Below are positions 1-28,748 of a stretch of DNA of 28,748 nucleotides, piece by piece; position 1 is the first letter of the stretch; each line of letters opens with the position of its first letter. The translations under genes and the position numbers were made by a program. This DNA is from a virus: IMG/VR virus record IMGVR_UViG_3300011253_001134, positions 1 through 28,748 of that record. The stretch is one strand, 5' to 3'. The notes under the pieces are model-generated. The model was not told where the DNA came from. It was given only the letters and a program-made list of their open reading frames with translations, and made no database searches.

Positions 1-717
1 CAGAGTATAACTAACCCTGTCATTCGTCGTTTCTGGAAAGTGGAGTTTCCCGCTTTAACAACCAGGGAGCAGAACGAGTTGGTGCGGTCTGCTGAGACGA
101 CCTTCCACATCCTTATCTCCGATCCTCGGATTGCTGCTATTGTTGCTCAGCATAAATCATTGATAGAGCTATCTAACCCTACTCAAATTTTTCTGGCGAA
201 AATCCCCCAAGGTGATTTCGGTATTCAGCGCAGCGCTACCATAGGCTCTCTGCTTCTAGGACAGCTCTACAATACGATCCAACAATGTCCCGTAGATCAT
301 CTGTCCGTTTATGTCCTTGATTGCCACCATCTAGCGCCCAGCACACTTATAGAAATGCTTACAGCAGGCTCGCAGTACGGTCTGAGAATCACTCTTGCCC
401 ATCAGACACTTTCGCAGCTAGACTGGCGACTAAAGGACGCGATTTTAGGGTGTGCAGATTTTCGGCATGTCTTCCGGGTTTCGCAGAAGGATGCTGACGA
501 GTTGGATAGAATAAATGGCCCAGATAATATCAACGTTCGACCGAACGAATTAGCTCCAGGTATTTACAGAACCTATCCGATCAACAGGCTCCAGCCAGAT
601 AACCCTGCTACCCTTCCTTTAACCGTTCCCAACGAGAAGGCGCGGGAGAGGGTATTGCGTGCCAACGAGAAGTACCATCGACCTATTGACCTCAATGCAA
701 GAGTGGAGAGTTTTTGA
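1..717 (+). CDS. HerA/VirD4-like conjugation ATPase, C-terminal part (5' truncated by window edge)
   Basis: The reading frame is open from base 1 with no stop, so this is the 3' end of a longer gene; the ATG at 40 is probably internal. About 238 residues remain. They align in order with the C-terminal half of the T4SS DNA-binding/DUF87 motor ATPases: an NPVIRRFW motif near the start, a hydrophobic strand ending VYVLDCHHLAP at the Walker B position, then YGLRITLAHQTLSQLD, which is the usual 'Y-L-LAHQ' segment after Walker B. The family normally has D-E-F after the strand; here it is D-C-H, so the catalytic glutamate is missing and the copy may be structural. The stop overlaps the ATG of the next ATPase (TGATG), which indicates translational coupling. 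Family call is fair; function in transfer is inferred. Confidence 0.6.
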   Translation, partial: QSITNPVIRRFWKVEFPALTTREQNELVRSAETTFHILISDPRIAAIVAQHKSLIELSNPTQIFLAKIPQGDFGIQRSATIGSLLLGQLYNTIQQCPVDHLSVYVLDCHHLAPSTLIEMLTAGSQYGLRITLAHQTLSQLDWRLKDAILGCADFRHVFRVSQKDADELDRINGPDNINVRPNELAPGIYRTYPINRLQPDNPATLPLTVPNEKARERVLRANEKYHRPIDLNARVESF

Positions 718-2780
718 TGGAAATGATTTTAATCCTTTGGGGGCTTCCGTTGTTTTCGGCTTTAATTATGCCGAAAGGTAAAGCGAATGACATCCGCCTG
801 TATATCGCGCTAGGAGGACTTCTTCTTTGGTTTGTGGCTCTAGTATTATTCATTGGAATTGCTATTGAACTTGGTCGGGATGATGGGGCGAACGTTTTAG
901 AAATTGCTATCGCTATAGGCGCTATGTATCTCTTTGGCGCTGTTGTCGCTTGGTGGGGCGGCATGATCCTCACCTTTAGAGATGATCGTAAGGTAGCCTC
1001 CGCTGTTTGGTCTGAAGCAAATAGAGACTTACTCGATCAGCTTCCAGCTCTACCTCTGGATGCGAATGTATACACAGCAAAGGTTATATCGCTCTTGAAG
1101 CATAATCTTCCCTATAAGCTAACATCGGATTTGGAGGCTAATCTAGCGGAGTGGTATGTACGTTCGAGAGGACCGCTTACCGAACAGTTTTATAAAGATA
1201 AGTTAGATCACGAGTGCAGGCATTCTTTTTGGCCGTTGTTTTTTATCGGCGCTCGTGCGGTTATAAAACCAGACGCTTATATTTCTGAAATCAAGCATCA
1301 GTTGGCAAACATGGACCGGACAGCGATGCTGTACTCTGAGCCAGAGACGATGGCCAACTTTCTGAATGTTGTCTTCTACTACCTACCAAAACATATGTCA
1401 GACGATGGGGATACCCCGCTACGTGCCGTCATCCCTGACGAGCAAGTGGTTCAGTATGAGCGCACGTTCCTTTCTATTGATCCAACCAAGAAGTTAGGAT
1501 CGATCCTCGACCTCACGATTGGCTTCTCGATCCCCGAAGAACTCCGCACCAGGCACACCCATATGGTTAGCAGCTCTGGCCACGGCAAAACCACGGCGCT
1601 GGAGTATATGATTGCCCAGGATGCTAAAGACCTTGATACGTCGATCGTTGTCATCGACAGCCAAGGTCAGATGATCCCCCGGTTGCTGCTATTAGCTGAC
1701 ATCAATCCAAACAGGTTTGTTGTAATTAACGCCGATGATGTGAAAAATCCGATTGCCCTTAATCCGTTCTCAATTGGAAGCAAACGTGTCCGGGATTACG
1801 ACGAGAAAACTCAGGAGCAATTGGTAAACACCGTTATCGAGCTGTATGAGTTTATGTTCAGCTCAATCATGGATGGAGCGGAGCTTACAGGTAAGCAGGG
1901 AGCGCTATTCCGATACCTTTGCCGTCTTCTTTTGAAGGTGCCCGATGCGACCTTGCGAGACATGACGTATATCTTGCAGCACGGGACGGCGAAGTATCAG
2001 AAGTACATCAAAGAGCTGACCCCAGCGGGACAGGACTTTTTCAATCATCAGTTTGCCGACAAGAAGGGCGACCTGGTGAGAACGAAGCAAGAGGTGTTGC
2101 GCCGCTTGTCCCAGCTCCTAGAGAACCCAACCTTCGAGCGGATGTTCTGTCAGCCTGAGAACCACCTTGATCTGTTTACCGAGATGGCATCGGGTAAGAT
2201 CATCCTGATTAATACGTCACTTGAAATGCTTCGTGAGGGAGCGTCCCGAGTGATGGGCCGGTTCTTTATCGCCCTGATCCAGTTTGCCGCCCAGGAGCGC
2301 AACGTAGGCCGTCCCAGTCCCTGCTACGTCTACATCGATGAGTTTCAAGAGTATCTAGGTTCGAGTGTTGCCCGCATGTTGGAGCAGTCCCGAAAAGCTA
2401 ACATCGGTCTGATCCTCTCTCATCAGGGCCTCTATCAGCTGGAGGACGCCCAGGTGTCTGGTGCTGTGCGGACGAACACTGCCATTAAGATGGTTGGCTC
2501 CCTGGACCCGTCTGAGGAGGCGCAGATGGCGAAGCTTATGAGGACGGAGCCTGACATGCTGCGACAGCCCCGAGGGACGTTCTACACCTCTTTGGTGGGA
2601 GGTGGGGCATTCCCTGTTGCGTATCCCAAGGACTATCTCTCGACACTCCCCCAGCGATCCTTAGTTGAGCTTATCGAGCTGCTGAATTTGAGCCGTAAAC
2701 GATTCGCCGTGCGCGGCGTATATACTGACCCTTCTTCTGCTTCTTCTGGGGCTACCTCCACAGATAGCACCACGCTCTAA
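717..2780 (+). CDS. Membrane-anchored HerA/VirD4-like type IV secretion coupling ATPase
   Basis: 687 residues. The N-terminus holds two or three membrane segments (about residues 2-20, 28-55 and 60-85), followed by a cytosolic domain. Walker A is SSSGHGKTT (about residues 284-292), and Walker B is VYIDEFQ (about 535-541) followed by a LILSHQGLYQL sensor-like segment. This is the DUF87/T4SS DNA-binding ATPase architecture: hexameric motors that pump DNA at the inner membrane. I chose the ATG at 717 over the TTG at 714 because GGAG at 705-708 lies 8 nt upstream and the ATG overlaps the preceding stop. The tail after about residue 665 is Ser/Thr-rich and probably disordered. Together with the preceding ATPase it resembles a paired coupling-protein locus of conjugative elements. 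It is unusual next to phage structural genes. No relaxase of MOB type is seen in the window. Confidence 0.75.
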   Translation: MEMILILWGLPLFSALIMPKGKANDIRLYIALGGLLLWFVALVLFIGIAIELGRDDGANVLEIAIAIGAMYLFGAVVAWWGGMILTFRDDRKVASAVWSEANRDLLDQLPALPLDANVYTAKVISLLKHNLPYKLTSDLEANLAEWYVRSRGPLTEQFYKDKLDHECRHSFWPLFFIGARAVIKPDAYISEIKHQLANMDRTAMLYSEPETMANFLNVVFYYLPKHMSDDGDTPLRAVIPDEQVVQYERTFLSIDPTKKLGSILDLTIGFSIPEELRTRHTHMVSSSGHGKTTALEYMIAQDAKDLDTSIVVIDSQGQMIPRLLLLADINPNRFVVINADDVKNPIALNPFSIGSKRVRDYDEKTQEQLVNTVIELYEFMFSSIMDGAELTGKQGALFRYLCRLLLKVPDATLRDMTYILQHGTAKYQKYIKELTPAGQDFFNHQFADKKGDLVRTKQEVLRRLSQLLENPTFERMFCQPENHLDLFTEMASGKIILINTSLEMLREGASRVMGRFFIALIQFAAQERNVGRPSPCYVYIDEFQEYLGSSVARMLEQSRKANIGLILSHQGLYQLEDAQVSGAVRTNTAIKMVGSLDPSEEAQMAKLMRTEPDMLRQPRGTFYTSLVGGGAFPVAYPKDYLSTLPQRSLVELIELLNLSRKRFAVRGVYTDPSSASSGATSTDSTTL

Positions 2781-2786
2781 CATACG

Positions 2787-2803
2787 TCCTCATACTGACC
2801 GAT
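2787..2803 (+). repeat. Intergenic motif, copy 1 (TCCTCATACTGACCGAT)
   Basis: A 17-base motif in the gap before the Replic_Relax gene. It matches 15 of 17 positions with TCCTCATGCTGACCGTT at 4476-4492, also intergenic. The conserved core is TCCTCAT-x-CTGACCG. It may be an operator or replication-protein binding site; only two copies are seen. Confidence 0.4.
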
Positions 2804-2824
2804 CTTTCTTTGGCGTGTCTACAT

Positions 2825-2838
2825 GCTAGACTATTAGT
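2825..2838 (+). promoter_or_regulatory. Extended -10 promoter giving a probable leaderless mRNA
   Basis: TGC-TAGACT (2825-2832, extended -10) ends 6 nt before the ATG at 2839, so the predicted transcription start is the start codon itself. No Shine-Dalgarno site is present. The -35 is weak. Confidence 0.5.
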
Positions 2839-3732
2839 ATGGCACGCTTAGACACACTCGGTCGGTTGGCATTTAATGTTCGACCCGACGACATAGACCT
2901 CTCCATTCATCCGCGACCCGCAGAAGTGGAGATACTTTCATTCTTAAACATACACGGGGCAGTTAACACTAACTTCCTACGTGAGTGGTGCAGCTACAAG
3001 CACCCAAAGAACACTCAGCAAGCGCTGCTACGGCTCTGGCGGGGTGGTTATATCTTTTGCCCCCGGCAACAGCGATCCGCTGACAATAACAACGCTTGTG
3101 TGCGGGTATACGAACTGGACGACCGAGGGCGTCACTACCTGGATCGCAGAGATATCCTAGCGACAGAACGTCACCGATCTAACTGGTGGCTTCACGACTA
3201 CATGGTTTCATGTGTGTCTGCATCAATTCACATTGCAGCTCGTAAGGCGGGTTACGAGTTCATCACCCGACCTTACCTTCTTGATCGTTCTGGGGGCCAA
3301 ATCTGGCGAGAGGTTCAGGGGAAGAAGCTCATCCCTGATGATCTTTTTGCATTAAAGTCACCAGATGGCTTTTTCCGTGCATTTTGTGTTGAGGCTGATC
3401 GCAGCAGTGAGGCAGGAGTAACGTCGAAGCCTAATGCCAAATCCTACGAACGAGCTATCTCACAGTACGCTGAGTTCATTGGCGACAATCTCTATAAAGA
3501 GCATTTTGATCTGAAGGCACGAATGTTTGTGCTAACTGTCTTTAACGATAAGCCGAGTATGCGCCTCTATAATCGCTTGATCGAGGAGCAGCTGGGCGAG
3601 TGTAGCTACATGCTGTCTCAGACCGTAGATAATTTCCAATCCGACTGGCAACCTCCGAAGGAAACCTTCGACCATCTCTTTACTGGAGAGTGGCAGCGCG
3701 TCGGGCACAATCCGTTTAACTTAAACAAGTAG
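2839..3732 (+). CDS. Replic_Relax (replication-relaxation) family protein, PD-(D/E)XK-like
   Basis: 297 residues. The N-terminal third (about 27-105) reads as a winged helix, with a helix-turn-helix around residues 40-72 and a charged wing ending YELDDRGRHYL. The C-terminal part carries IPDDLF (165-170), then VEADRSSE (184-191) and KSYERAISQY (201-210). This P-D...E-x-D...K order is the signature of Replic_Relax proteins and resembles a PD-(D/E)XK nuclease core. The family is associated with plasmid and conjugative-element replication/mobilisation in actinobacteria, firmicutes and CPR bacteria. It follows two coupling-type ATPases, so a role in DNA processing for transfer or in plasmid-style replication is plausible but inferred. 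The start is supported by an extended -10 element at 2825-2832, which would make the mRNA leaderless. Confidence 0.75.
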   Translation: MARLDTLGRLAFNVRPDDIDLSIHPRPAEVEILSFLNIHGAVNTNFLREWCSYKHPKNTQQALLRLWRGGYIFCPRQQRSADNNNACVRVYELDDRGRHYLDRRDILATERHRSNWWLHDYMVSCVSASIHIAARKAGYEFITRPYLLDRSGGQIWREVQGKKLIPDDLFALKSPDGFFRAFCVEADRSSEAGVTSKPNAKSYERAISQYAEFIGDNLYKEHFDLKARMFVLTVFNDKPSMRLYNRLIEEQLGECSYMLSQTVDNFQSDWQPPKETFDHLFTGEWQRVGHNPFNLNK

Positions 3733-3738
3733 TATACT
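3733..3738 (+). promoter_or_regulatory. Candidate -10 (TATACT) for the CHC2 gene
   Basis: TATACT lies directly after the preceding stop codon. The predicted start would give a leader of about 20 nt that contains the GGAGG at 3757-3761. No good -35 is seen. Confidence 0.35.
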
Positions 3739-3765
3739 TAGGCTTGGGCAACCCGTGGAGGATGA

Positions 3766-4290
3766 ATGTCCATGTACCTAGACTTCGCCAAGATCAAGGA
3801 AGATCATCCGATTGAGGGGATGATTGAACGACTTGGCCTTCAGCTGAAGACCAACGGCAAGCAGATGCGCGGTAAATGCCCGGTGTGTGAGGGAAGCGGA
3901 GATCGCAACCTCGTCATCACCCCGGAAAAGAACGTGTACTACTGCTTTGCTGACCAAAAAGGGGGCGACGTGATCGCTCTGGTCGCACACATCAATGGCT
4001 GCGGCGTCAAAGAGGCGGCGCAGTGGATTGCAGGAGACACTTCCGAAAGGGAGACCGTTCCCAAGGAGAAGAAGGGGTTTAAGCCCCTCGATTACCTGGA
4101 CGCTGAACATGAGGCCGTACTGGCTGTTGGGTTTGAACCCGATGACGCCAGGGCTTTAGGTATCGGCTATGCCCCCCGAGGCGTTCTGCGTGGCACCGTG
4201 GCTGTGCCCATTCGGAACCCTGATGGGAGCCTGGCCGGTTACATCGGCATCCAAGAAGCTACCCTCCCGCCAAAATGGGAGATCAACTGA
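3766..4290 (+). CDS. CHC2 zinc-finger, primase-like short protein
   Basis: 174 residues. The N-terminal domain has CPVC (38-41), then VYYCFADQKGGDVIAL (57-72), the CHC2 zinc-finger pattern found at the N-terminus of DnaG-type primases. The fourth ligand position, normally C or H, appears to be D63. Residues 130-174 (GIGYAPRGVLRGTVAVPIR, then an LPPKW ending) match the start of the TOPRIM_N region, and the protein stops there. Stand-alone CHC2 proteins of this length occur on mobile elements, so I read it as complete rather than broken. It has no TOPRIM catalytic core, so it is unlikely to be a primase alone; DNA binding is more likely. GGAGG at 3757-3761 is only 4 nt from ATG 3766 and 10 nt from ATG 3772, so the second ATG is possible. 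Confidence 0.7.
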   Translation: MSMYLDFAKIKEDHPIEGMIERLGLQLKTNGKQMRGKCPVCEGSGDRNLVITPEKNVYYCFADQKGGDVIALVAHINGCGVKEAAQWIAGDTSERETVPKEKKGFKPLDYLDAEHEAVLAVGFEPDDARALGIGYAPRGVLRGTVAVPIRNPDGSLAGYIGIQEATLPPKWEIN

Positions 4291-4313
4291 GCGCTCCGGC
4301 GCTCTTTCTTTTT
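4289..4313 (+). terminator. Rho-independent terminator after the CHC2 gene
   Basis: Stem GAGCGC (4289-4294) / GCGCTC (4299-4304) with loop TCCG, followed by TTTCTTTTT. The stem begins inside the stop codon of the preceding gene. It closes the left module. Confidence 0.85.
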
Positions 4314-4317
4314 GCCC

Positions 4318-4343
4318 AAAAAAAATGGCCCACCACGGGGCCA
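4318..4343 (-). terminator. Leftward rho-independent terminator
   Basis: On the minus strand, TGGCCC (4343-4338) and GGGCCA (4331-4326) form a 6-bp stem that is followed by eight T (4325-4318). It implies a leftward transcript from the gap 4344-4560, although no convincing minus-strand gene lies there. It sits only 4 nt from the rightward terminator, so the two may jointly insulate the module boundary. Confidence 0.6.
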
Positions 4344-4347
4344 CTGC

Positions 4348-4492
4348 GCGCTACTCACCAGCTCGACGGCTGTACCGACTATATAGCGCATCTCGCTTGT
4401 TAAAAAAAGCCCTTTATGAAATATTTTGTTACCTCAAACCATGCTAACAATTAGCTGATCTAGCTGCCTCATGGTTCCTCATGCTGACCGTT
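4348..4492. other. Structured intergenic region with inverted and direct repeats
   Basis: No protein gene is convincing here. Visible structure: GCGCTA (4348-4353) pairs with TAGCGC (4384-4389) around an inner CAGC/GCTG stem; AACCATG (4437-4443) pairs with CATGGTT (4470-4476) around the palindromic AGCT-GATCT-AGCT; CCTCATG is repeated at 4467-4473 and 4477-4483, exactly 10 bp apart. The second overlaps the motif TCCTCATGCTGACCGTT (4476-4492). It could be an operator, an iteron-like origin element or a small RNA gene that uses the leftward terminator at 4318-4343. I do not recognise a known RNA family or tRNA. Confidence 0.4.
4476..4492 (+). repeat. Intergenic motif, copy 2 (TCCTCATGCTGACCGTT)
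   Basis: Matches 15 of 17 positions with the motif at 2787-2803. It is preceded by a half-repeat (CCTCATG at 4467) one helical turn upstream. Confidence 0.4.
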
Positions 4493-4564
4493 TAACATGG
4501 AGTGGAATTAGGTTATCTGGGTTTTGCGGGAGAAACATATAAGACACTCTCCGCCAAAAAAACT

Positions 4565-5086
4565 ATGGGTTACTACATGTATCTTTATCGTGAGCATCAC
4601 GCCACGCCAGCTAATGAGCAGATGCCTGACGCATCCGCGTCTGCTGAGGCTCAGGTGTGGCCTGAGTATCCAACAATGGTGCGCGAGACTATCGGAAAAT
4701 GGTGGAAGGCTTATCAAATACATGGATGGATTGTAGACAACGTTTGTAAGGATAGTGACATCCCTATGGTATGTGACGTTTCACGCAGCGAGCTAGCTAA
4801 GCTACTAGAAGTCGTTGATGAAGTTTTGAACGCATCTGAGTTGGTTTCGGGGCGGATGAGCCTGGGCTACTCCCCTACCGATGAGGGTAAAGTGCATTTC
4901 TTCAAAGACGGCAAACTAATTGCTGACCCTAGAGTTGCCAAACGTCTCCTTCCAGTCGGAGGAAATGACCCTGACAAGCTCGTTTACGATCAATACTATA
5001 TTGATCAGCTTGAAGCCGTTAAGACTGCCTTGCAAGCCGCGTTGGCCTCTCCGGCACACATGCGCTTTAGCTACGCGATGAGTTAA
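4565..5086 (+). CDS. Conserved phage hypothetical protein (MYLY.../KWWKAYQIHGW family)
   Basis: 173 residues from ATG 4565. The protein begins MGYYMYLYREHH and contains KWWKAYQIHGWIVDNV (about 47-62), a Ser-Arg-x-x-Leu-x-x-Leu helix, a KRLLPVGG segment and a YDQYYIDQLEAVKTALQ C-terminal helix. This order matches a widespread phage protein of unknown function, usually seen as D-MYLY ... YWRKANAIHNWFV ... YDEYYFEDL. The match of the first residues to the family favours ATG 4565 (or 4574) over the upstream in-frame GTG at 4502. There is no Shine-Dalgarno site; TATAAG at 4538-4543 is a possible -10. Transcription ends at the terminator at 5123-5150. Confidence 0.6.
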   Translation: MGYYMYLYREHHATPANEQMPDASASAEAQVWPEYPTMVRETIGKWWKAYQIHGWIVDNVCKDSDIPMVCDVSRSELAKLLEVVDEVLNASELVSGRMSLGYSPTDEGKVHFFKDGKLIADPRVAKRLLPVGGNDPDKLVYDQYYIDQLEAVKTALQAALASPAHMRFSYAMS

Positions 5087-5122
5087 GCACTCCTTATTAC
5101 TGTCGTGCATGAGCTGCGAAAG

Positions 5123-5150
5123 CACCGGGCTAACCCCCGGTGTTTTTTTT
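5123..5150 (+). terminator. Rho-independent terminator
   Basis: Stem CACCGGG (5123-5129) / CCCGGTG (5136-5142), loop CTAACC, followed by eight T (5143-5150). It separates the upstream gene from the DUF932 transcription unit. Confidence 0.9.
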
Positions 5151-5152
5151 AG

Positions 5153-5161
5153 TGGTATCAT
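5153..5161 (+). promoter_or_regulatory. Extended -10 promoter of the DUF932 gene
   Basis: TGG-TATCAT starts 2 nt after the T tract of the terminator. It predicts a leader of about 30 nt with GGAGGA at 5187-5192 before the ATG at 5197. Confidence 0.45.
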
Positions 5162-5196
5162 TAGTGCAGACTACAACTGTACCTATGGAGGACGCA

Positions 5197-5910
5197 ATGT
5201 CCCTAATGATCCACGCAGGAGCGGAGCATGTTGATTATGCTGCCGTGCAAGAACTCGAAACGCCCGAAGGCACCGACACGCACTGCCCCATCGCTCACAG
5301 GGATGTGGTGGACATGGTGAAATACTCGCTGGGCTTCTATGGCCACGATGTCACCACCGAGCATCACGCGATCACACCGGACGGCGCACGCTATTTCGGC
5401 ATCCTTTGCCTCAAGTCACCCTACGGCGACTATACCGACATGGTTGGCCTGCGGAACTCGCACGACAAGAAGTTCCCTATCGGGATCAGCTTCGGGAGCC
5501 AGGTGTTCGTCTGTGACAACCTTGCCTTCAATGGCGATCACGTCATCAAGCGCCGCCACACCCCGAGGGCCAAACGCGATCTTCCTGGTCTCGTTGCCGA
5601 GATCGTTGAACCGTTGGGCGAACGCCGGAAAGCTCTGGCTGTCACCTATGATGGTTTCAAGGAAACGACGCTGGAGGACGACCAGGCCGATGCCGCGATC
5701 ATGCGTCTCTACCGCCAAGGCGTTATCAACGTTCAGCGTATCGCCAACATCGCTAGCGCCTGGGACGAACCCCCGCACGACTGGGGCGACAAGACAGCAT
5801 GGCGACTTTTCAATGCCGCTACGTTCTCCCTCAATGGCCGCGTTGCAGAAGACCCCTCAACGACCGCGAACCTACACCAGGTCATCGAAGGTGTCTGTGA
5901 AGCAGCCTGA
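5197..5910 (+). CDS. DUF932 family phage/plasmid protein
   Basis: 237 residues. The central segment (MVGLRNSHDKKFPIGISFG, then VFVCDNLAFNGDHVIKRRHT, about residues 80-125) is the core DUF932 signature, found in phage and plasmid proteins of unknown biochemical role, often near replication or recombination genes. The upstream GTG-started extension (from 5140) is non-homologous and runs through the terminator T tract. ATG 5197 has a strong GGAGGA 4 nt upstream; ATG 5206 is an alternative. Codon choice is noticeably richer in G and C at third positions than in the tiny genes at 7.5-10.5 kb. The gene has its own promoter and terminator and so forms a single-gene unit. Confidence 0.75.
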   Translation: MSLMIHAGAEHVDYAAVQELETPEGTDTHCPIAHRDVVDMVKYSLGFYGHDVTTEHHAITPDGARYFGILCLKSPYGDYTDMVGLRNSHDKKFPIGISFGSQVFVCDNLAFNGDHVIKRRHTPRAKRDLPGLVAEIVEPLGERRKALAVTYDGFKETTLEDDQADAAIMRLYRQGVINVQRIANIASAWDEPPHDWGDKTAWRLFNAATFSLNGRVAEDPSTTANLHQVIEGVCEAA

Positions 5911-5915
5911 AAACC

Positions 5916-5956
5916 GGGCACGGAGTTATCCACACTCCGTGCCCATTTATTTATTT
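5916..5956 (+). terminator. Strong terminator with a DnaA box in its loop
   Basis: An 11-bp perfect stem, GGGCACGGAGT (5916-5926) / ACTCCGTGCCC (5934-5944), is followed by ATTTATTTATTT. The loop and its edges read TTATCCACA (5926-5934), a perfect DnaA box. Confidence 0.8.
5926..5934 (+). promoter_or_regulatory. DnaA box (TTATCCACA)
   Basis: Exact match to the strict DnaA-box consensus, placed in the loop of the terminator. A second perfect copy is at 7452-7460 and a third, inverted, at 27632-27640. Confidence 0.45.
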
Positions 5957-5963
5957 CGTAAGT

Positions 5964-6089
5964 TATAATTCAGAGGACAGGGGTAGTACCTTGTCAATTC
6001 CCGCCTTGGAGCCTCCTCCTACTTTTCAGACTAAACAAAACTCTCTCTCCAACCTTACTGTAGGACTTCGTAGCAGATCGTTTCTGCTA
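5964..6089 (+). promoter_or_regulatory. Promoter and about 120-nt leader of the metallophosphoesterase gene
   Basis: TATAAT at 5964-5969 is a good -10 without a clear -35. It gives a leader to 6097 with no convincing ORF. The leader ends in a hairpin, TAGCAGA (6071-6077) / TCTGCTA (6083-6089), 8 nt before the start codon. A CCTCCTCC run at 6014-6021 could pair with Shine-Dalgarno-like sequence. A translational control role is possible but unproven. Confidence 0.4.
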
Positions 6090-6097
6090 GCGGGAAA

Positions 6098-7321
6098 ATG
6101 GCCACTAAAAATAAAATCGACGGTCGCTACAACGCGACAGAGCATGGTGCCTTTATTCGAGAGCTTATTAGTGAGGAAAACAACTGGGGAAAGTACACAC
6201 GCAGCCAAGTAGCCGAGATGGCATCAGAGAAATGTGGATATAAGGTCACAACTGAGAACGTGCGCTCCATCTTACGTGGTCAAGACGCGCAAGGCTTCAC
6301 CACTCACCAGATGCCGAAAAACCAATATACTGGTCGATCCGACCGGGTAGATCAGGAGGCCGACCGACTAGGTGTCGGAAAGGGGAATTGGAGCAGTGCC
6401 TGGATCAAGGAGGATAACGTGTCGATGTATGTCAGGAACGACATGCCTCAGCAGAAGATCGAAGACCTGGTGGCCGAGAGCATCGATGCGATGCAGAAGC
6501 ACAAAGTCACCTATCCGAAGATCAAACGCACAAAGGTCACTGACCCTCACTTGTTGGTTATCGATCCAGCTGACGTACACATTGGAAAGCTAGCTCTCTC
6601 TGTTGAGACGGGAGAGGACTACAATATCGAGATCGCAAAGAAGCGATGTATCGAGGGGGTAGAGGGACTAATCCAAAAGTCACAGGGTTTTCCTATTGAG
6701 AGGGTGATGCTCGTGATTGGTAATGACATCCTTCATTTTGATACGCCAAAGCGAACAACGACATCTGGCACCCCACAGGACACAGACGGGCAGCTCCATC
6801 AGATTTATCTGGAGGGGCTGAATTTATATGTGCAGCTCATCGAGCGTTTGATGCAGGTTGCCGATGTTGAGGTGGTGTATAATCCATCTAACCACGACTA
6901 CATGTCTGGCTACATGTTGGCGCAGACCCTAGCCGCTTGGTTCCGACAATCGAAGAATGTAAGTTTTGATGTTTCTATCCGTCACCGGAAATATACCAAG
7001 TACGGTGAAAACCTCATCGCCACGAGCCACGGAGACGGCGCAAAGCACGCTGATATGCCGATGCTCATGGCCGCAGAGGCCGACGATTGGTCATCTACAA
7101 AGTTTCGATACATCTATCTACATCACCTCCACCATAAGAAGGTGACGAAGTGGCAAGCAGCTGGCGACCTCCCAGGCGTTACGTTGCAAATCCTCCGCAG
7201 CCCGTCAGCAACAGATGGATGGCATGATCGAAAAGGGTATGCGTGCCAGCCAAAGGCCGTAGAGGGCTTTATTCACCATAAGACGAGTGGCCAAGTAGCC
7301 TCACTAACTCACTATTTCTAA
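6098..7321 (+). CDS. Calcineurin-like metallophosphoesterase (phage type)
   Basis: 407 residues. The C-terminal domain has the metal-ligand motifs of metallophosphoesterases in order: DVH (159-161), GND (208-210), SNHD (264-267), HGD (311-313) and HHLHH (342-346). The segment after GND, LHFDTPKRTTTSGTPQDTD, is typical of a phage subfamily seen near replication and packaging genes. Residues 1-70 look like a separate helical, possibly HTH, DNA-binding domain, joined by a polar linker. A nuclease or phosphodiesterase acting on phage or host nucleic acid is the likely activity; the substrate is unknown. No Shine-Dalgarno site is visible; a hairpin lies just before the ATG. A 42-codon ORF follows after 1 nt. 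Confidence 0.75.
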   Translation: MATKNKIDGRYNATEHGAFIRELISEENNWGKYTRSQVAEMASEKCGYKVTTENVRSILRGQDAQGFTTHQMPKNQYTGRSDRVDQEADRLGVGKGNWSSAWIKEDNVSMYVRNDMPQQKIEDLVAESIDAMQKHKVTYPKIKRTKVTDPHLLVIDPADVHIGKLALSVETGEDYNIEIAKKRCIEGVEGLIQKSQGFPIERVMLVIGNDILHFDTPKRTTTSGTPQDTDGQLHQIYLEGLNLYVQLIERLMQVADVEVVYNPSNHDYMSGYMLAQTLAAWFRQSKNVSFDVSIRHRKYTKYGENLIATSHGDGAKHADMPMLMAAEADDWSSTKFRYIYLHHLHHKKVTKWQAAGDLPGVTLQILRSPSATDGWHDRKGYACQPKAVEGFIHHKTSGQVASLTHYF

Positions 7322-10553: not shown

Positions 10554-10871
10554 ATGGATGACTTTACAGGCGAGAAACAGGCATCACCTGCTGATCGCAT
10601 CAAACCTTGGCAGTTCCCGAAAGGAGTAAGCGGCAACCCTAAGGGGCGGCCTAAATCTCCAATCACTCGAATAAAAGAAATCTGGAACGAAAATCCAGAG
10701 CTTTATGATAAGTGGGTTGCTGAATACATGGAAGATAAAAATAACCGGAAACACGTTGTAGAGATGATTGAAGGAAAGCCAAAGCAACAAACTGATATCA
10801 CTTCGGGGGGTGAGCCAATTCAAGGATTTAATTTCATACGCGCTGATGAAGCCGACGATACGTCCAACTAA
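10554..10871 (+). CDS. Terminase small subunit-like (DUF5681-type)
   Basis: 105 residues. WQFPKGVSGNPKGRPKS (19-35) is the FxxGxSGNPxGRPK motif of DUF5681 proteins, which sit directly upstream of terminase large subunits. The middle is helical, and PKQQTDITSGGEPI near the end is typical of small terminase tails. It would recognise viral DNA and recruit the motor. It overlaps the large-subunit start by 26 nt. Confidence 0.7.
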   Translation: MDDFTGEKQASPADRIKPWQFPKGVSGNPKGRPKSPITRIKEIWNENPELYDKWVAEYMEDKNNRKHVVEMIEGKPKQQTDITSGGEPIQGFNFIRADEADDTSN

Positions 10872-12360
10872 AAAACAACAAATAGCGTGGGATCGCTGGT
10901 GGGACTTAATTACTAAGTTTATTGTTTTGGGTGGAGGAGCAGGCGGAGGAAAGTCTTGGGCGGGCTGTGAAATGGTCTTAACGGATTGTTACCGGTACCC
11001 TGGAGGAAGCTTCTTCCTTGCTCGCAACGAGCTTAAGCGGCTTATGGGAACGACTTACAAAACCTGGTTGAAGGTTTGTAAGCATCATAAAATTCCTGAT
11101 AGTGATTGGAAGCTGGACGGCCAATACAACATCATTAAGTTTAAGAATGGAGCTGAGGTTCATTTGCTCGATGTGGCTTATAAGCCAACTGACCCAATGT
11201 ATGAACGGTTTGGGTCTTATGAGTTTACCAAAGGCTTTGGAGACGAGATAAATGAATGGCAGTTTGATGCGTATGATGTGCTTAAGTCCCGGATCGGTCG
11301 AAACAACTCTTTTGATGCTAAAGCAGGACGCATGATTACTCCCCCTGCGGACTTTGAGGGGAACGAACATAAGTACCCTCATATTGAGGTGGTCCCACCG
11401 AAGTTTCTTGGTGGGTGTAACCCCGCGAAGAACTGGGTATATCAGGAGTTCTATAAGCCTTGGCGCGATAACGTCCTCCCGGCTGAGAAGGCTTTCATAC
11501 AATCTTTATACACAGATAACCCCTACACCGCTAAGAGCTATGGGGAGCAACTTGCTGCAATTAAAAATGACGTTAACCGGCAACGATTAATGGATGGAAA
11601 CTGGGATTATTCTGACAATCTTTCAGCCCTAGTGTCCTACGGTGCCCTGGCGGACTTGCCAAGCAATCCTAAGCAAACAAGTGGTACTCGCTATTGCGTC
11701 ATTGATGTGGCTGGGGGCGGCGGGGACAACGCCATTGCGAACCTGTTTGACGGGTGGCACTCATACAAGCGGGTTCTCTTGCCTGCAACTGACGATCCTC
11801 AGCTCCTTCGAGATGAGGTTAAGCAGCTTTTGAGTGATGAAGATATTCTCTATAGCAACACTTTATACGATGCGAATGGCCTCGGCTGGGCTTTGGGGGG
11901 TGGGGATCTCCAGGGGCTACGGCCCTTCGTGGGTTCTCGTTCTCCGCTCGCGACTAGGGACCAAATTAATCTCCGCTCCCGGAAGCGGTACGACCCAGAA
12001 GCTCAAGCTCCAAACTTTAATCACGTAAAAAGCCAGTGTGCCTGGTTCTTGGCTGAAAAGATTAATTCTCATGCAGCCAGCATGGCTCCGGGGAACCATG
12101 TGGCGACTGTTATTGAGGACTTGACTGCTTTGCTTATCCAGAAGGACCCCGAAAAGGAAGGAAAGCTATCTCTTAAGCCTAAAGAGGATGTTCGGCAAGA
12201 CTTGGGGCGATCCCCTGATGATGGCGATACATGGATTATGCGGGCATGGTTTGATGTCTATGAGCTGTCAGAAAAAGGTGATCCCGCTAGGAGAGACGAC
12301 CATTCTGGTTATTACAGCGAGCTTGAATACTCACAAGTCGGCGGTGGTGTGAGGAAGTAG
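10846..12360 (+). CDS. Terminase large subunit
   Basis: 504 residues from ATG 10846; the frame is open further upstream (to 10768) but that part only shadows the small subunit. The ATPase domain has Walker A GGGAGGGKS (29-37) after a RWWDLITKFIVLGG strand, and Walker B KGFGDEINE (129-137) with D133-E134. The nuclease domain shows the RNase H-like acids at YCVIDVAGGG (D287) and TLYDANG (D342). It is the packaging motor that threads DNA through the portal and cuts concatemers. It is followed by a 29-nt gap with a promoter, then the portal gene. Confidence 0.85.
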   Translation: MKPTIRPTKKQQIAWDRWWDLITKFIVLGGGAGGGKSWAGCEMVLTDCYRYPGGSFFLARNELKRLMGTTYKTWLKVCKHHKIPDSDWKLDGQYNIIKFKNGAEVHLLDVAYKPTDPMYERFGSYEFTKGFGDEINEWQFDAYDVLKSRIGRNNSFDAKAGRMITPPADFEGNEHKYPHIEVVPPKFLGGCNPAKNWVYQEFYKPWRDNVLPAEKAFIQSLYTDNPYTAKSYGEQLAAIKNDVNRQRLMDGNWDYSDNLSALVSYGALADLPSNPKQTSGTRYCVIDVAGGGGDNAIANLFDGWHSYKRVLLPATDDPQLLRDEVKQLLSDEDILYSNTLYDANGLGWALGGGDLQGLRPFVGSRSPLATRDQINLRSRKRYDPEAQAPNFNHVKSQCAWFLAEKINSHAASMAPGNHVATVIEDLTALLIQKDPEKEGKLSLKPKEDVRQDLGRSPDDGDTWIMRAWFDVYELSEKGDPARRDDHSGYYSELEYSQVGGGVRK

Positions 12361-12389: not shown

Positions 12390-14168
12390 ATGAACATCTT
12401 TGAATACGTCCGCGAGCAGCAGAACAGCTATGAAAGTGATACAGTCACTGTCTCCGGTAAGGACTTTAATCAGAAGGAACGCATTGACCAGATTGAGATT
12501 GCCTCTTTGTGCTTGTACGAAGAAGATAACTCCGACGCGATTTTAGGTGAGCTTGTCTATGACGACATCATTACCGACAAGGTGGAGAAGGAAGCGCAGA
12601 TACTAGACTTTGATACCAAGCATCTCGACATCTCACCGGATAAACCAACTGAGGAGAGCCGATATAAAGCTATGCTTGCATCTAACGGGACGCGCGATGA
12701 AATGGATCGCGACCGTTATGGTTCCTTTTTTAACAAATGGGTACGCACATACAGCAAGTATGGTGGAACCCTGAGTAAGGAAACGGAGGACGGCCCACAG
12801 GTTGTCTCCTGGCATAACGTCATCACTGACCAAACAGACATCCTATCTGGCGTCATTATTGAAAAGCATTACTACACTCCAGCCGAATTGAAGAAGATGG
12901 GTGGGGCATGGGACAACGTAGACGACGCTATCAAGCTCGCTATGCAGCATAAAGAAAGCTCTGCTACACAGATCGGGCGCAAGAGTGACACCCAGGGTCA
13001 CTACATCGAGGTTCACGAAATTCACGGTGAGCTATCTGAGGACATCTACAAGGAAGATGGCGATCCTCTCAAGTTCCAACGGAAGATGATCATCGTTGCT
13101 GGTGTTAATGCTTCGAGCGATGAAGGAGATGATACAGAGAAGGGAGTTATTTTATACGAAGCCGACGAAACCAAAAACCCATATAAATTTATGGCCCGTA
13201 ATCCGATTGATGGGATTGCTCTTGGGCGTGGATTGGTTGAGGAATTACTACCACAGCAGATCACTCATAACTTCATCCTCAATGAGGAAATGAGAATGGT
13301 GGCTATTGCAGGTAAAATCTTTGCGAAGACAAACAAGAAGGAAATCCCTAACAATGTCGGTAAGTTCGACCACTTATCAGTCTTCAAACTTAATGACGAC
13401 GAGTACTTTGAACTTACCTCAGCCGTTCCTAGCTCGCTCCCAGGCTTCCGCGATCTGCGTCAGCACATCCTAGAGAACGTTCGGAACATCTCAGGGATGC
13501 ACGAAGCTGTCTCTGGAGAGGAGGGCAAGGCCAACAAACCTCTCGGCCTCCACAAGCTACAGAACATCGAAGGACACAGCCGCTTCAAGCCAGATCGTCA
13601 AGAGATCGGTTTCCACTTTGAGGAGATCGTCAAAGACTGGACCCTCCCTAAAGCCCTCAAGCGTCTTCGCAAGAAGGATGAGCTTTACACCAATTTTAGC
13701 GATCAACAGCTGATCCAGCTGGATCGAGTGATTATGAATAAGGCTCTGTCTCGGAAGTTTACAGAGATGACCCTAGCAGGCCAGGTAATCACTCCAGAGG
13801 CGTTTGCTGAGGTTGAGGCTGGTCTAACCCGCAAACTGTCTGAACAGGGCAAGAAGCGGCTTGTGAGCGGTCTGAGGGACTTCCTACGGATTGACGATGG
13901 GGATGTTCGGATCGCATTCACGGATGAGAGCTTTGATAAGGGCGACTTCTTCGAGAGCCGCGTCAGCTTTGTGCAGCTCCTAGGGCCTCAAGATCCTTGG
14001 TCCCGTGCCATGATTCGAAAGTCTATGGACGAGGCCGGTATCACCCCGGAAGAACTAGCGATTGAGGAAGAACGTGCCGCGCAGCTCGCGCCAGATCAAG
14101 CTGGGGGGAGCGCTAGCGGTGTCGAGTTACCAGGCAATGAGCAACAGGCTCCAGCACAGCAAGTCTAA
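12390..14168 (+). CDS. Portal protein
   Basis: 592 residues, placed between terminase and scaffold as portals are. Features: FFNKWVRTYSKYGG (about 111-124), VVSWHNVITDQTDIL, a YYTPAELKKMGG segment, a long central helix region (ARNPIDGIALGRGLVEELLPQ) and HKLQNIEG. The C-terminus is acidic and Gln/Ala-rich. Size and pattern fit the large portals of podoviruses rather than the small HK97 type. It forms the dodecameric ring at the capsid vertex. Assigned mainly from position plus pattern. Confidence 0.7.
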   Translation: MNIFEYVREQQNSYESDTVTVSGKDFNQKERIDQIEIASLCLYEEDNSDAILGELVYDDIITDKVEKEAQILDFDTKHLDISPDKPTEESRYKAMLASNGTRDEMDRDRYGSFFNKWVRTYSKYGGTLSKETEDGPQVVSWHNVITDQTDILSGVIIEKHYYTPAELKKMGGAWDNVDDAIKLAMQHKESSATQIGRKSDTQGHYIEVHEIHGELSEDIYKEDGDPLKFQRKMIIVAGVNASSDEGDDTEKGVILYEADETKNPYKFMARNPIDGIALGRGLVEELLPQQITHNFILNEEMRMVAIAGKIFAKTNKKEIPNNVGKFDHLSVFKLNDDEYFELTSAVPSSLPGFRDLRQHILENVRNISGMHEAVSGEEGKANKPLGLHKLQNIEGHSRFKPDRQEIGFHFEEIVKDWTLPKALKRLRKKDELYTNFSDQQLIQLDRVIMNKALSRKFTEMTLAGQVITPEAFAEVEAGLTRKLSEQGKKRLVSGLRDFLRIDDGDVRIAFTDESFDKGDFFESRVSFVQLLGPQDPWSRAMIRKSMDEAGITPEELAIEEERAAQLAPDQAGGSASGVELPGNEQQAPAQQV

Positions 14169-15082: not shown

Positions 15083-15952
15083 ATGGCAATTGTAAATAAG
15101 GAGGTCTGGAAAGAAGCCCTCCAAGAAAAGCTAGAAGAAGCCACGCTATGGAAGACTGTTGCTGAGGTGACATACACTTCTGACAAAACAGTTCACTTCC
15201 CTTATCGTGACCTACCAACTGCATCAAGCTACACCCGTGGCGCGCAGTACTCACCAGCAGACCCAGTATCAACTGATGACACTATGGTGATCGATGACGG
15301 GGAGATCGTATCTGAGTTCATGGACAAGGCTGACCTTGCACAGAACGGATACATCAACGAAGTTGAAATGGGACAAGCTCAAGGTATCGTTATCAACGAA
15401 GTGATGGAAAGCACTTTGACTGCATTGCACTCACAAGCTGGCCTCTCACTCGATGATGGCGACTTTGGTGGAACTCCCACAAACCCGTTGCAAGCATCAG
15501 GTGGCGCGTCAGGTAACATCGCTACTGTATTCCAAAAAGCTCGTACTCTTATTGCCTCACAACGAGGTGGTATCCAGTACATGAACCGCTTTGGGATGTC
15601 AGCAATCGTTGACCCGCAAAACTTCGAGTACATTGTTTCATTTGCACAAAAGAACGGTTTCATGTTCGCTGATGACGCCCTAACAGGCGGATCAGTACCA
15701 GTGATCAACGGTTTCCGTGTTTACGAAAGTAACCTCTTGGACACCACAACTGATGCTGGAACAGTCCACTGTCTCTTTGGTGTAAACCGAATGATGCACC
15801 TAGGTGTCCTTAACACTACTTTTGGAGACATCGACGTTATCGAGAACCCAGACCGACGTTCTGGTATCGACGTTATCTCACGAGTAGATCGTAAAGGTAA
15901 GATTTGGAACAACCACGCTAACTTCGTCATTGACGTAGAACTCGTAGGCTAA
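15083..15952 (+). CDS. Major capsid protein (HK97 fold likely)
   Basis: 289 residues. MAIVNKEVWKEALQEKL forms an N-arm helix; VHFPYRDLPTASSYTRG is an E-loop-like segment; the A-domain region includes YMNRFGMSAIVDPQNFEYI; the end LFGVNRMMHLGVL... is typical of coat proteins. Position after the scaffold and before the adaptor supports it. Codon use is more biased (repeated ATC, AAC, GGT) than in neighbours, as in highly expressed genes. There is no Shine-Dalgarno site despite this; the leader is A/T-rich with two CTACTTAA repeats. Confidence 0.75.
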   Translation: MAIVNKEVWKEALQEKLEEATLWKTVAEVTYTSDKTVHFPYRDLPTASSYTRGAQYSPADPVSTDDTMVIDDGEIVSEFMDKADLAQNGYINEVEMGQAQGIVINEVMESTLTALHSQAGLSLDDGDFGGTPTNPLQASGGASGNIATVFQKARTLIASQRGGIQYMNRFGMSAIVDPQNFEYIVSFAQKNGFMFADDALTGGSVPVINGFRVYESNLLDTTTDAGTVHCLFGVNRMMHLGVLNTTFGDIDVIENPDRRSGIDVISRVDRKGKIWNNHANFVIDVELVG

Positions 15953-26787: not shown

Positions 26788-26965
26788 CACTCCCTGGGCG
26801 CGATATGCCAGACTATCTCGGGAGTTAGCCGAGTTTGATGCTGAAATAAAGAACGACCTGGAAGACGGTAAGGACACCCCGCGCGCTGATGACTGTCTAA
26901 TTTGCCTACTGTTATTCATGCTGCTGACGCAGATTGCTATACTAATTATATTGTTATGGAAATAA
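26777..26965 (+). CDS. Small tail-anchored membrane protein (62 aa)
   Basis: 62 residues from ATG 26777: a charged N-terminal helix (ARYARLSRELAEFDAEIKND), then a hydrophobic C-terminus (CLICLLLFMLLTQIAILIIL). It overlaps both neighbours by about 10 nt. It could be a holin, antiholin or small spanin-like partner. Confidence 0.5.
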   Translation: MNDDTPWARYARLSRELAEFDAEIKNDLEDGKDTPRADDCLICLLLFMLLTQIAILIILLWK

Positions 26966-27543
26966 ACAGAGACTTCGATTTATCGCATAACTCCTGGGCC
27001 GGAAATGATCCTCGATCTATCTTGCTGCATACGACACTGGGGGGCGGGAATATCACCGGGGTTATTGATACGCTCGAAGCTCGTGGCCTTTCATATAACT
27101 ACGTCATTAAGAATGGCATCGTTTACGAACTGGTGCCCTACACCCGTTGTGCGTGGCATTCTGGTGTTGTATCTGGCATGAACCTTCGAGCTTTGGCGTT
27201 CTACAAAGACGGTAAAGGCCCAAACAACCCTAACCGACATAGCGTCGGTATCGCCTTTGACTATTCCCAAGGAGAATTTCAGCTATTAGAGAAGGATATT
27301 GATGCAGCTATTTTGTTGATTAAGTGGCTTGGCCAAGAGACTGGGCATCGGTACAACGCAGATAACATCTTTTTTCATCGTGAAGTCACAAGCTACAAAC
27401 CACTAGAAGTGAAGCACTATCGCGATCAGGTGCTTGAGGCATTGGTGGGAGACAAAGATGATAAAGACCAGGGGGAAACAGCAAAGGCTGAGTTGCTACG
27501 TCGAGTGCTTATCGAAATCATTAAGCGCTATACCCGCATGTAG
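26956..27543 (+). CDS. N-acetylmuramoyl-L-alanine amidase (Amidase_2 type) endolysin
   Basis: 195 residues from ATG 26956. The Amidase_2 pattern is visible: SILLHTTLGG (H25, where the family has HHT), YNYVIKNGIVYELVPYTRCAWHSG (residues 47-70, H68), SVGIAFDYSQG and FFHREVTSYK (H141). It cuts the amide bond between muramic acid and the stem peptide. The final residues are helical and basic. It has no signal peptide, so export would need a holin. Fourth ligand region (KPLEVKHY) departs from the usual K-x-D-P. Confidence 0.75.
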   Translation: MEINRDFDLSHNSWAGNDPRSILLHTTLGGGNITGVIDTLEARGLSYNYVIKNGIVYELVPYTRCAWHSGVVSGMNLRALAFYKDGKGPNNPNRHSVGIAFDYSQGEFQLLEKDIDAAILLIKWLGQETGHRYNADNIFFHREVTSYKPLEVKHYRDQVLEALVGDKDDKDQGETAKAELLRRVLIEIIKRYTRM

Positions 27544-28418: not shown

Positions 28419-28682
28419 CTAGAAGGGAACGTCGTTCGGATTATCTGGGCTTGCCTTTTCCTCTGGCTTCCAGGTGTTCAGAGCAAAGTATGGTCGCTTA
28501 TCTGCATCCTTTGGTTTAAGGAAATCAAAGTTCACCCAACCATCCTCTTTCTTGTATTTTTGCAGCTGTGCTACAAACTCATCAACCTTGATTGATACGC
28601 CACCGAGTACGAAGTCTGGTGCACCATCTCGCTTGCGAGTAAAGATCATTCCGTCTGCAAATACCTTTTCTTGTTGTTCCAT
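28419..28682 (-). CDS. Small protein with SSB-like acidic C-terminal tail
   Basis: 87 residues on the minus strand, convergent with the lysis cassette. The body has KVFADGMIFTRKRDGAPDFV, then VSIKVDEFVAQLQKY and GWVNFDFLKPKD, a β pattern found in small proteins of phages and uncultured bacteria. It ends PDNPNDVPF, like the D-D-x-P-F tail by which single-strand-binding proteins recruit partners. A DNA-binding role in replication or recombination is plausible. It heads the end of a leftward operon whose upstream gene lies beyond the window. Confidence 0.55.
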   Translation of the reverse strand: MEQQEKVFADGMIFTRKRDGAPDFVLGGVSIKVDEFVAQLQKYKKEDGWVNFDFLKPKDADKRPYFALNTWKPEEKASPDNPNDVPF

Positions 28683-28747
28683 GTTTTTTGTTTTAATTCA
28701 ACTAATAGCTCCCGCTCCCGCTCCTGCTCCCGCTCCTGCTCCTGCTC
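28646..28747 (-). CDS. Possible 3' end of an upstream leftward gene in a hexanucleotide repeat
   Basis: Reading the minus strand in the frame that ends at TGA 28648-28646 gives a Glu-Gln/Glu-Arg repeat (EQEQEREQERERE), then LLVELKQKTWNNKKRYLQTE and a stop, overlapping the start of the 87-residue gene. The other two frames give Gly-Ala or Ser-Arg/Gly repeats with nearer stops. The charged-repeat frame looks the most protein-like past the repeat, but the choice is uncertain. Confidence 0.3.
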   Translation of the reverse strand, partial: EQEQEREQERERELLVELKQKTWNNKKRYLQTE

Positions 28748-28748
28748 C
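28708..28748. repeat. Hexanucleotide tandem repeat at the window edge
   Basis: GCTCC followed by C or T, repeated about 7 times (28708 to the last base). All three minus-strand frames stay open through it. Such a repeat often breaks assemblies, so this edge may be a contig end. Confidence 0.85.

Follow-up and report, generated by a model that had tools for sequence, protein, structure and literature searches.

A conserved early gene block with a predicted relaxase-family nuclease and a coupling protein-like ATPase in a group of uncultured temperate phages, and its possible role in mobilisation

The IMG/VR virus record IMGVR_UViG_3300011253_001134, a linear fragment of 28,748 nt that is referred to here as the window, begins with a block of five genes (positions 1-5910) encoding a truncated ATPase (B), an ATPase resembling type IV coupling proteins (T4CPs) (A), a Replic_Relax protein (R), a CHC2 zinc-finger protein (C) and a DUF932 protein (D). 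This block is a genuine and inherited part of the phage genome in a group of integrating temperate phages. We tentatively read these left 5.9 kb as a MOBC-type mobilisation module, similar to that of CloDF13, and consider it probable that its nuclease and T4CP-like motor act at an inverted-repeat site found in related phages.

Viral relatives were collected by alignment-based scans of IMG/VR contigs, giving 32 distinct contigs with the window included; single-protein scans for A, R and the portal protein in viral contigs, and for A in genome contigs, returned nothing, so that alignment queries were required. The genes for A, R and C lie on one strand and in the same order in 22 of the 32 contigs (20 of these 22 also carrying D), a recurrence that shows the arrangement not to be chance, and the remaining ten contigs begin at a contig end within the block. 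Contigs with only a distant DUF932 protein (<45% identity) have no block in the available DNA. The integrase is upstream of the block in 17 loci and the terminase downstream; counting the record G001, a terminase is present in 24 of 33 records and a phage integrase in 17. An exact terminal repeat of 127 bp, together with genes for integrase, B, a small product, A, R, C, D, TerS, TerL, portal, capsid and tape-measure proteins, shows that one relative, G029, is a complete circular phage genome of 43.4 kb. Another (G015) has a 135-bp terminal repeat (97.8%), and its integrase frame reads through the joined ends. The terminases of these phages fall into several unrelated clusters, indicating that the packaging genes vary more than the block next to them.

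A first-pass annotation of the window, made from its letters alone, had described a plasmid- or integrative element-like cassette joined to phage genes of the same orientation, and both points are borne out, since the cassette is physically in a phage genome and A, R and C share the + strand with the phage genes. The cassette had been drawn as ending at position 4290, which is too short, as D (5140-5910) also belongs to it. The integrase reported as missing is indeed absent from the window, which is truncated; relatives encode it just upstream of the point at which the record starts. The proposed podovirus affiliation is not supported, G029 having a tape-measure protein, and the alternative of a phage-plasmid is probably wrong because relatives carry an integrase and no match to the ParA family was found. 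The features of tailed temperate phages (Caudoviricetes) are present as terminase, portal, HK97-type capsid, lysis genes and, from relatives only, integrase.

The central motor gene, A (positions 714-2780, + strand, 688 amino acids), has Pfam matches above cut-off to DUF87 (4e-7) and to the TrwB-like family TrwB_AAD_bind (2e-5), and its Walker A (GHGKTT) and Walker B (YIDE) residues are invariant in 42 homologues. The structure model (predicted local distance difference test, pLDDT, 77.7) is confident in the ATPase core; the top Foldseek rows are all TrwB (E 2e-11), and VIA Z scores were 28.5 for VirB4, 28.0 for TrwB, 27.7 for DotL and 22.9 for HerA, with TrwB aligned over 346-355 residues. 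An all-helical insertion at residues ~356-492 is modelled between strands of the ATPase core, in the manner of the all-alpha domain of T4CPs, and simple hydropathy, the method used for all membrane-segment predictions here, gives three N-terminal hydrophobic segments in the window protein. The model thus places A as a T4CP-like protein with a fold closest to TrwB and VirB4. Phage copies of A group together on long branches in a tree for which no rooting was drawn, and the apparent orthology of A across the group leans on those branches. Over their ATPase cores, A (window 714-2780) and B of L037 (L037:7389-8786) also resemble Mad8, a component of the MADS defence system (2e-13 and 4e-11, respectively).

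The gene upstream of A (positions 1-717, + strand) encodes the C-terminal half (238 amino acids) of B, a short second ATPase of T4CP/TraG type (phrog_5156, 1e-6; B-family hidden Markov model, 5e-31; 34% to B of L037). Its best relatives are ATPases of 385-475 amino acids that accompany A and R in bacterial elements. The left edge cuts through this gene, of which the visible part has no Walker A and only a degenerate Walker B (VYVLDCHHL); the window thus holds one intact ATPase and a paralogue fragment, in place of the two tandem HerA/VirD4-type ATPases of the first-pass annotation. The N-terminal half of B, and probably also the inverted-repeat site and the integrase, lie beyond the window's left edge; the latter two are known from relatives and are missing here because the record is truncated on that side. 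In 12 phages the position just before A is taken by c5, a degenerate relative of B (hhalign 97%, E 4e-11), mostly 245-340 amino acids long and devoid of a Walker A motif (L090:19045-19812, L096:3819-4634 and 10 more), which is possibly an inactive partner subunit.

The R protein (positions 2839-3732, + strand) scores 29.6 bits against the Replic_Relax profile (PF13814, 9e-7; cut-off 25.3), confirming the family given in the first-pass annotation. Its model (pLDDT 92.6) comprises a winged helix at residues 22-106, MarR-like in the VIA alignment (among the matches listed, by the winged helix only), and a PD-(D/E)XK domain that Foldseek matched to XisH, SdaI, FokI, BstEII, MunI and the nickase Nt.BspD6I (best E 1e-3). 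The conserved residues, of catalytic type, are P166-D167, E185, D187 and H119, and the pattern P-D...E-x-D/E with H119 is kept in ~90-96 of 96 homologues (D167 in 94, E185 in 95 and H119 in all 96). The catalytic set is not canonical, as the position of the usual PD-(D/E)XK lysine is occupied by D or E. PF13814 is counted as MobC by CONJscan (PMC5357655), and R is accordingly classed here as a protein of the MOBC-type relaxase family with a predicted nuclease fold, and as a putative nickase.

Downstream of R lies C (positions 3766-4290, + strand, 174 amino acids), a CHC2 zinc-finger, partial primase-like protein (PF01807, 6e-10; phrog_47, 6e-18), as the first-pass annotation also had it. An open reading frame at 4502-5086 (+ strand), which has no Pfam match and is outside the conserved module, separates C from D (5140-5910, + strand; PF06067, 2.5e-6), the last conserved gene of the module, with 53-65% identity within the phage group.

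The gap upstream of B or c5 contains a near-perfect inverted repeat in 13 of 18 phages, with scores of 13-20 compared with 7-11 for shuffled sequences. A nested form lies between the integrase gene and B or c5 in L007, L095, L113, L103, L107, L124, L127, L096 and L125; in the alignment the inner arms are near GCCACGACCCAATG, the outer pair is TTCCGCACCA..TCG / CGACGAAC..GGTG.GCGGA, and the loop is variable. As single-stranded DNA the site folds far better than shuffled versions (z -4.3 to -10), and Rfam held no match to it. A covariance model built from nine phages, whose E-values are rough because calibration was short, recovered the site in two phages that had not been used (L126, 4e-5; L128, 0.002). 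It also matched three elements absent from the training set, the Afipia-type L085 (1e-11) and L086 (2e-9) as well as L037 (2e-5), and in each case the match lay at the beginning of B or immediately ahead of it. Searching all of IMG/VR with the bare DNA pattern returned 11 contigs, three already known and eight new; among the new ones, only L201 (4e-11) and L198 (1.5e-9) have the full site, and both carry c5, A, R and C. The other six have neither the full site nor the module and look like chance matches. Together, the covariance and pattern results indicate that the site travels with the module, between phages and non-phage elements, and it is a candidate origin of transfer (oriT). No oriT candidate was found among the tandem repeats and long inverted repeats of window positions 1-6100, which probably places the site in the part that was cut off. 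A role for the repeat as the phage attachment site attP was rejected, since the repeat accompanies the module in elements too and, in L095, it and a tRNA-Gly gene lie on opposite sides of the integrase gene. That tRNA-Gly gene (L095:3485-3560), just upstream of the phage integrase, is itself a possible attachment site, although no second copy of the tRNA was found.

Outside phages, A adjoins R in most of 80 fetched chromosomal loci, nearly all of them alphaproteobacterial, where the pair is accompanied by tyrosine or serine recombinases and cargo genes and no phage genes were seen nearby. These alphaproteobacterial elements (L009-L088) and plasmids of Sulfitobacter mediterraneus and Methylomagnum ishizawai have homologous A and R and often B; A and R are adjacent in the Sulfitobacter plasmid, and similar pairs occur in the Methylomagnum plasmid and in Mwe-JY31. 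A few of the elements and plasmids have CHC2 or DUF932 proteins, and the cis site is common to L085, L086, L037 and the phages. They differ from the phages in that no phage structural genes were found near the pair, and their A proteins are at best ~42% identical to that of the window (38% in the Sulfitobacter plasmid and 35% in the Methylomagnum plasmid). Mwe-JY31 (L004; PP438423.1, Microcystis phage Mwe-JY31) was deposited as a complete phage and encodes Rep3, ParA, a T4CP-like ATPase, a protein in the Replic_Relax position, a TPR protein and a Schlafen-helicase; it looks plasmid-like, given Rep3 and ParA and the lack of any recognised structural gene among the proteins scanned. Against named phages, tblastn with R gave no match and A matched only this plasmid-like record. 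A small RuvC/RNase H-like protein beside an XRE-type regulator also recurs in alphaproteobacterial elements (L017:4529-5014, L006:7441-7926 and ~35 more).

If the module mobilises its phage, the prophage would first be excised by the upstream integrase. R would then bind the nested inverted repeat between the integrase gene and B and nick it, and A, with B or its degenerate form, would take the nicked circle as coupling protein and DNA motor, roles suggested by its fold and by gene linkage. VirB4 and VirB10 were not found in the 21 phage records searched, so transfer would require a helper: the strand would be fed to the type IV secretion system (T4SS) of a co-resident conjugative element. The CHC2 and DUF932 proteins might, more speculatively, help the incoming strand to become established or primed in the recipient cell. 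Such a phage would have two routes, the virion and helper conjugation, the latter much as MobB and MobC serve their own plasmid in CloDF13. A broader reading, to be held with slightly more reserve, is that a widespread group of uncultured temperate phages may keep a complete self-mobilisation kit as a core trait, share it with integrative elements and spread both by virions and by conjugation through helper T4SSs. That kit would comprise a relaxase-type nuclease, a coupling protein, a second motor and an oriT-like site, all of them predicted.

Several observations weigh against mobilisation. Hydropathy predicts no membrane segment in A for about half of the phages and for 43 of the 80 elements, and the membrane domain of CloDF13 MobB is required for mobilisation (PMC7431656). 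The degenerate c5 is retained in phages, which the mobilisation model does not account for, and the search for the inverted repeat came up empty in roughly one-third of the tested phages and in roseobacter-type elements. A search for DUF932 among 385 genomes from the class to which the Afipia locus L085 belongs gave no strong match and so pointed to no phage host or helper T4SS. Finally, none of the 21 phages has DnaB, and the complete circle G029 showed no further recognisable replication gene, so the module may instead serve replication.

In that case R would nick the inverted repeat as a replication origin, A and B would be the motors that drive replication or displace the strand, and CHC2 would aid priming, generating rolling-circle concatemers for packaging, and the resemblance to conjugation would reflect shared ancestry, not transfer. 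This explanation, the main rival, is less likely than mobilisation and is supported by several points: the block sits between integrase and terminase, a frequent place for replication genes in temperate phages, C is primase-like, A often has no membrane segment, and G029 offers no other recognised initiator. It fits less well with Bacillus phage 268TH007, in which a distant A/R-like pair accompanies a full replisome of the phage's own (helicase loader, DnaB, primase and polymerase), and whose sister phage is described as lacking the pair (PMC9476937). A distinct gene for a DnaD/DnaT-like replisome organiser is present in two of the phages, G002 and G030, though the Pfam match is weak (0.006), and two plasmid-like carriers can replicate without the pair, as each encodes a Rep protein. 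The coupling protein-like fold of A also argues against a replication role. Relaxases are able to serve both transfer and replication, and mobilisation and replication may therefore both hold.

Pairs of a HerA-type ATPase and a nuclease are known defence systems, and the pair could accordingly attack incoming DNA or control lysogeny, with the inverted repeat as an operator or self-recognition site. The match of A and B to Mad8 and the MarR-like winged helix of R are consistent with this reading. Such a role is nevertheless improbable, as R has no match among PADLOC families, A is nearer to TrwB and VirB4 than to HerA, and the block is fixed in the phage group whereas defence genes are usually variable. 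Very improbable is an accessory function in DNA ejection or packaging, in which A and B would pump phage DNA into or out of the cell or capsid; a SpoIIIE/FtsK protein of phage Pony has been proposed to aid DNA injection (PMC3853050), but the present phages have their own terminase, and A sits in the early block beside a nuclease and with a cis site that occurs in capsid-less elements too. The least probable reading is a chimeric assembly or, as the first-pass annotation offered, a prophage inserted beside a host element: although the record is a linear fragment, the cassette occurs in host genomes without these phage genes and G001 has an integrative element followed by a terminase, the same gene order recurs in 22 contigs with several terminase families, one complete circle included, which rules this reading out for the group and makes the host copies a shared module, with no integration junction at 4.3-4.6 kb.

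Beyond D, the window continues as a phage genome with exonuclease, small genes, terminase, portal, capsid, tail-region and lysis genes, in agreement with the phage part first described. An SbcD-like phage exonuclease (6098-7321; phrog_704, 1e-70) follows the module, then the terminase large subunit (10768-12360; phrog_979, 5e-21; phrog_2, 1e-17), a probable portal protein (12390-14168), assigned by position and a weak relation to ctPCi537 and clustering with those of eight other module phages, the major head protein (15083-15952; phrog_267, 3e-16) and an amidase/endolysin (26902-27543; phrog_1794, 8e-9), all on the + strand. A small gene on the - strand (28419-28682; 33% identity, E 1e-18, to L089:3929-4243) has its counterpart adjoining YqaJ and RecT genes in G002, indicating that the genome extends rightward of the window. 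A hexamer-type tandem repeat (GCTCCC/GCTCCT) occupies positions 28708-28748 at the very end of the record and may have caused the assembly to stop. Among relatives, L006 (G001, IMGVR_UViG_2898945296_000003) contains an A-R integrative element of the kind present in Phaeobacter marinintestinus, with the terminase and a second integrase further along, and the phage contig G003 (L092:65-1311, L094:6313-9458) has sugar-nucleotide and glycan genes at both ends, judged by eye to encode a transketolase-like protein, a sugar transferase, an epimerase and a DegT-type aminotransferase.

The nearest known system is CloDF13, in which MobB (a T4CP) and MobC (a MOBC relaxase) likewise pair a coupling protein with a PD-(D/E)XK-related relaxase on a plasmid that lacks its own T4SS (PMC7431656, PMC12857230). 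This likeness is one of protein families and gene make-up, and unlike CloDF13 the module resides on temperate phages, includes a second ATPase, CHC2 and DUF932, and has an A protein that often lacks a membrane domain. Streptococcal IME_Class_8 elements unite the same families in a compact integrative-element unit of VirD4, Rel_PF13814/MobC and integrase (PMC5357655), but are Gram-positive, use a serine integrase and have no phage genes. The first-pass annotation regarded VirD4-like motors in a phage as new, which is not wholly so: an ATPase/Replic_Relax pair is already known from Bacillus, the available text reporting a type IV secretion/FtsK-like ATPase beside a replication-relaxation protein in tyroviruses (Thrax phages, gp17/gp18) and in phage 268TH007 (gp32/gp33) (PMC9703825, PMC9476937). 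The 268TH007 pair is only distantly similar to A and R and is presented as accessory, being absent from relatives, and for neither pair does that text describe a CHC2-DUF932 block or a cis site. The open-licence papers searched yielded no phage group with a constant early block that unites the pair with CHC2, DUF932 and an oriT-like site and that integrative elements have as well.

Should the module mobilise, transduction and conjugation would meet in one element and limits on host range set by phage receptors could be bypassed; should it replicate, it would be a phage replication system made from conjugation parts. The cis site, found through comparison of phages and elements, makes the choice between the two directly testable in laboratory strains. 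Phage-derived elements with conjugation functions have been published in the form of P1-like plasmids that gained mob genes and oriT and lost virion genes, trading the one for the other (PMC10879196), whereas the present phages retain complete virion gene sets and have mob-type genes and a candidate oriT as fixed features.

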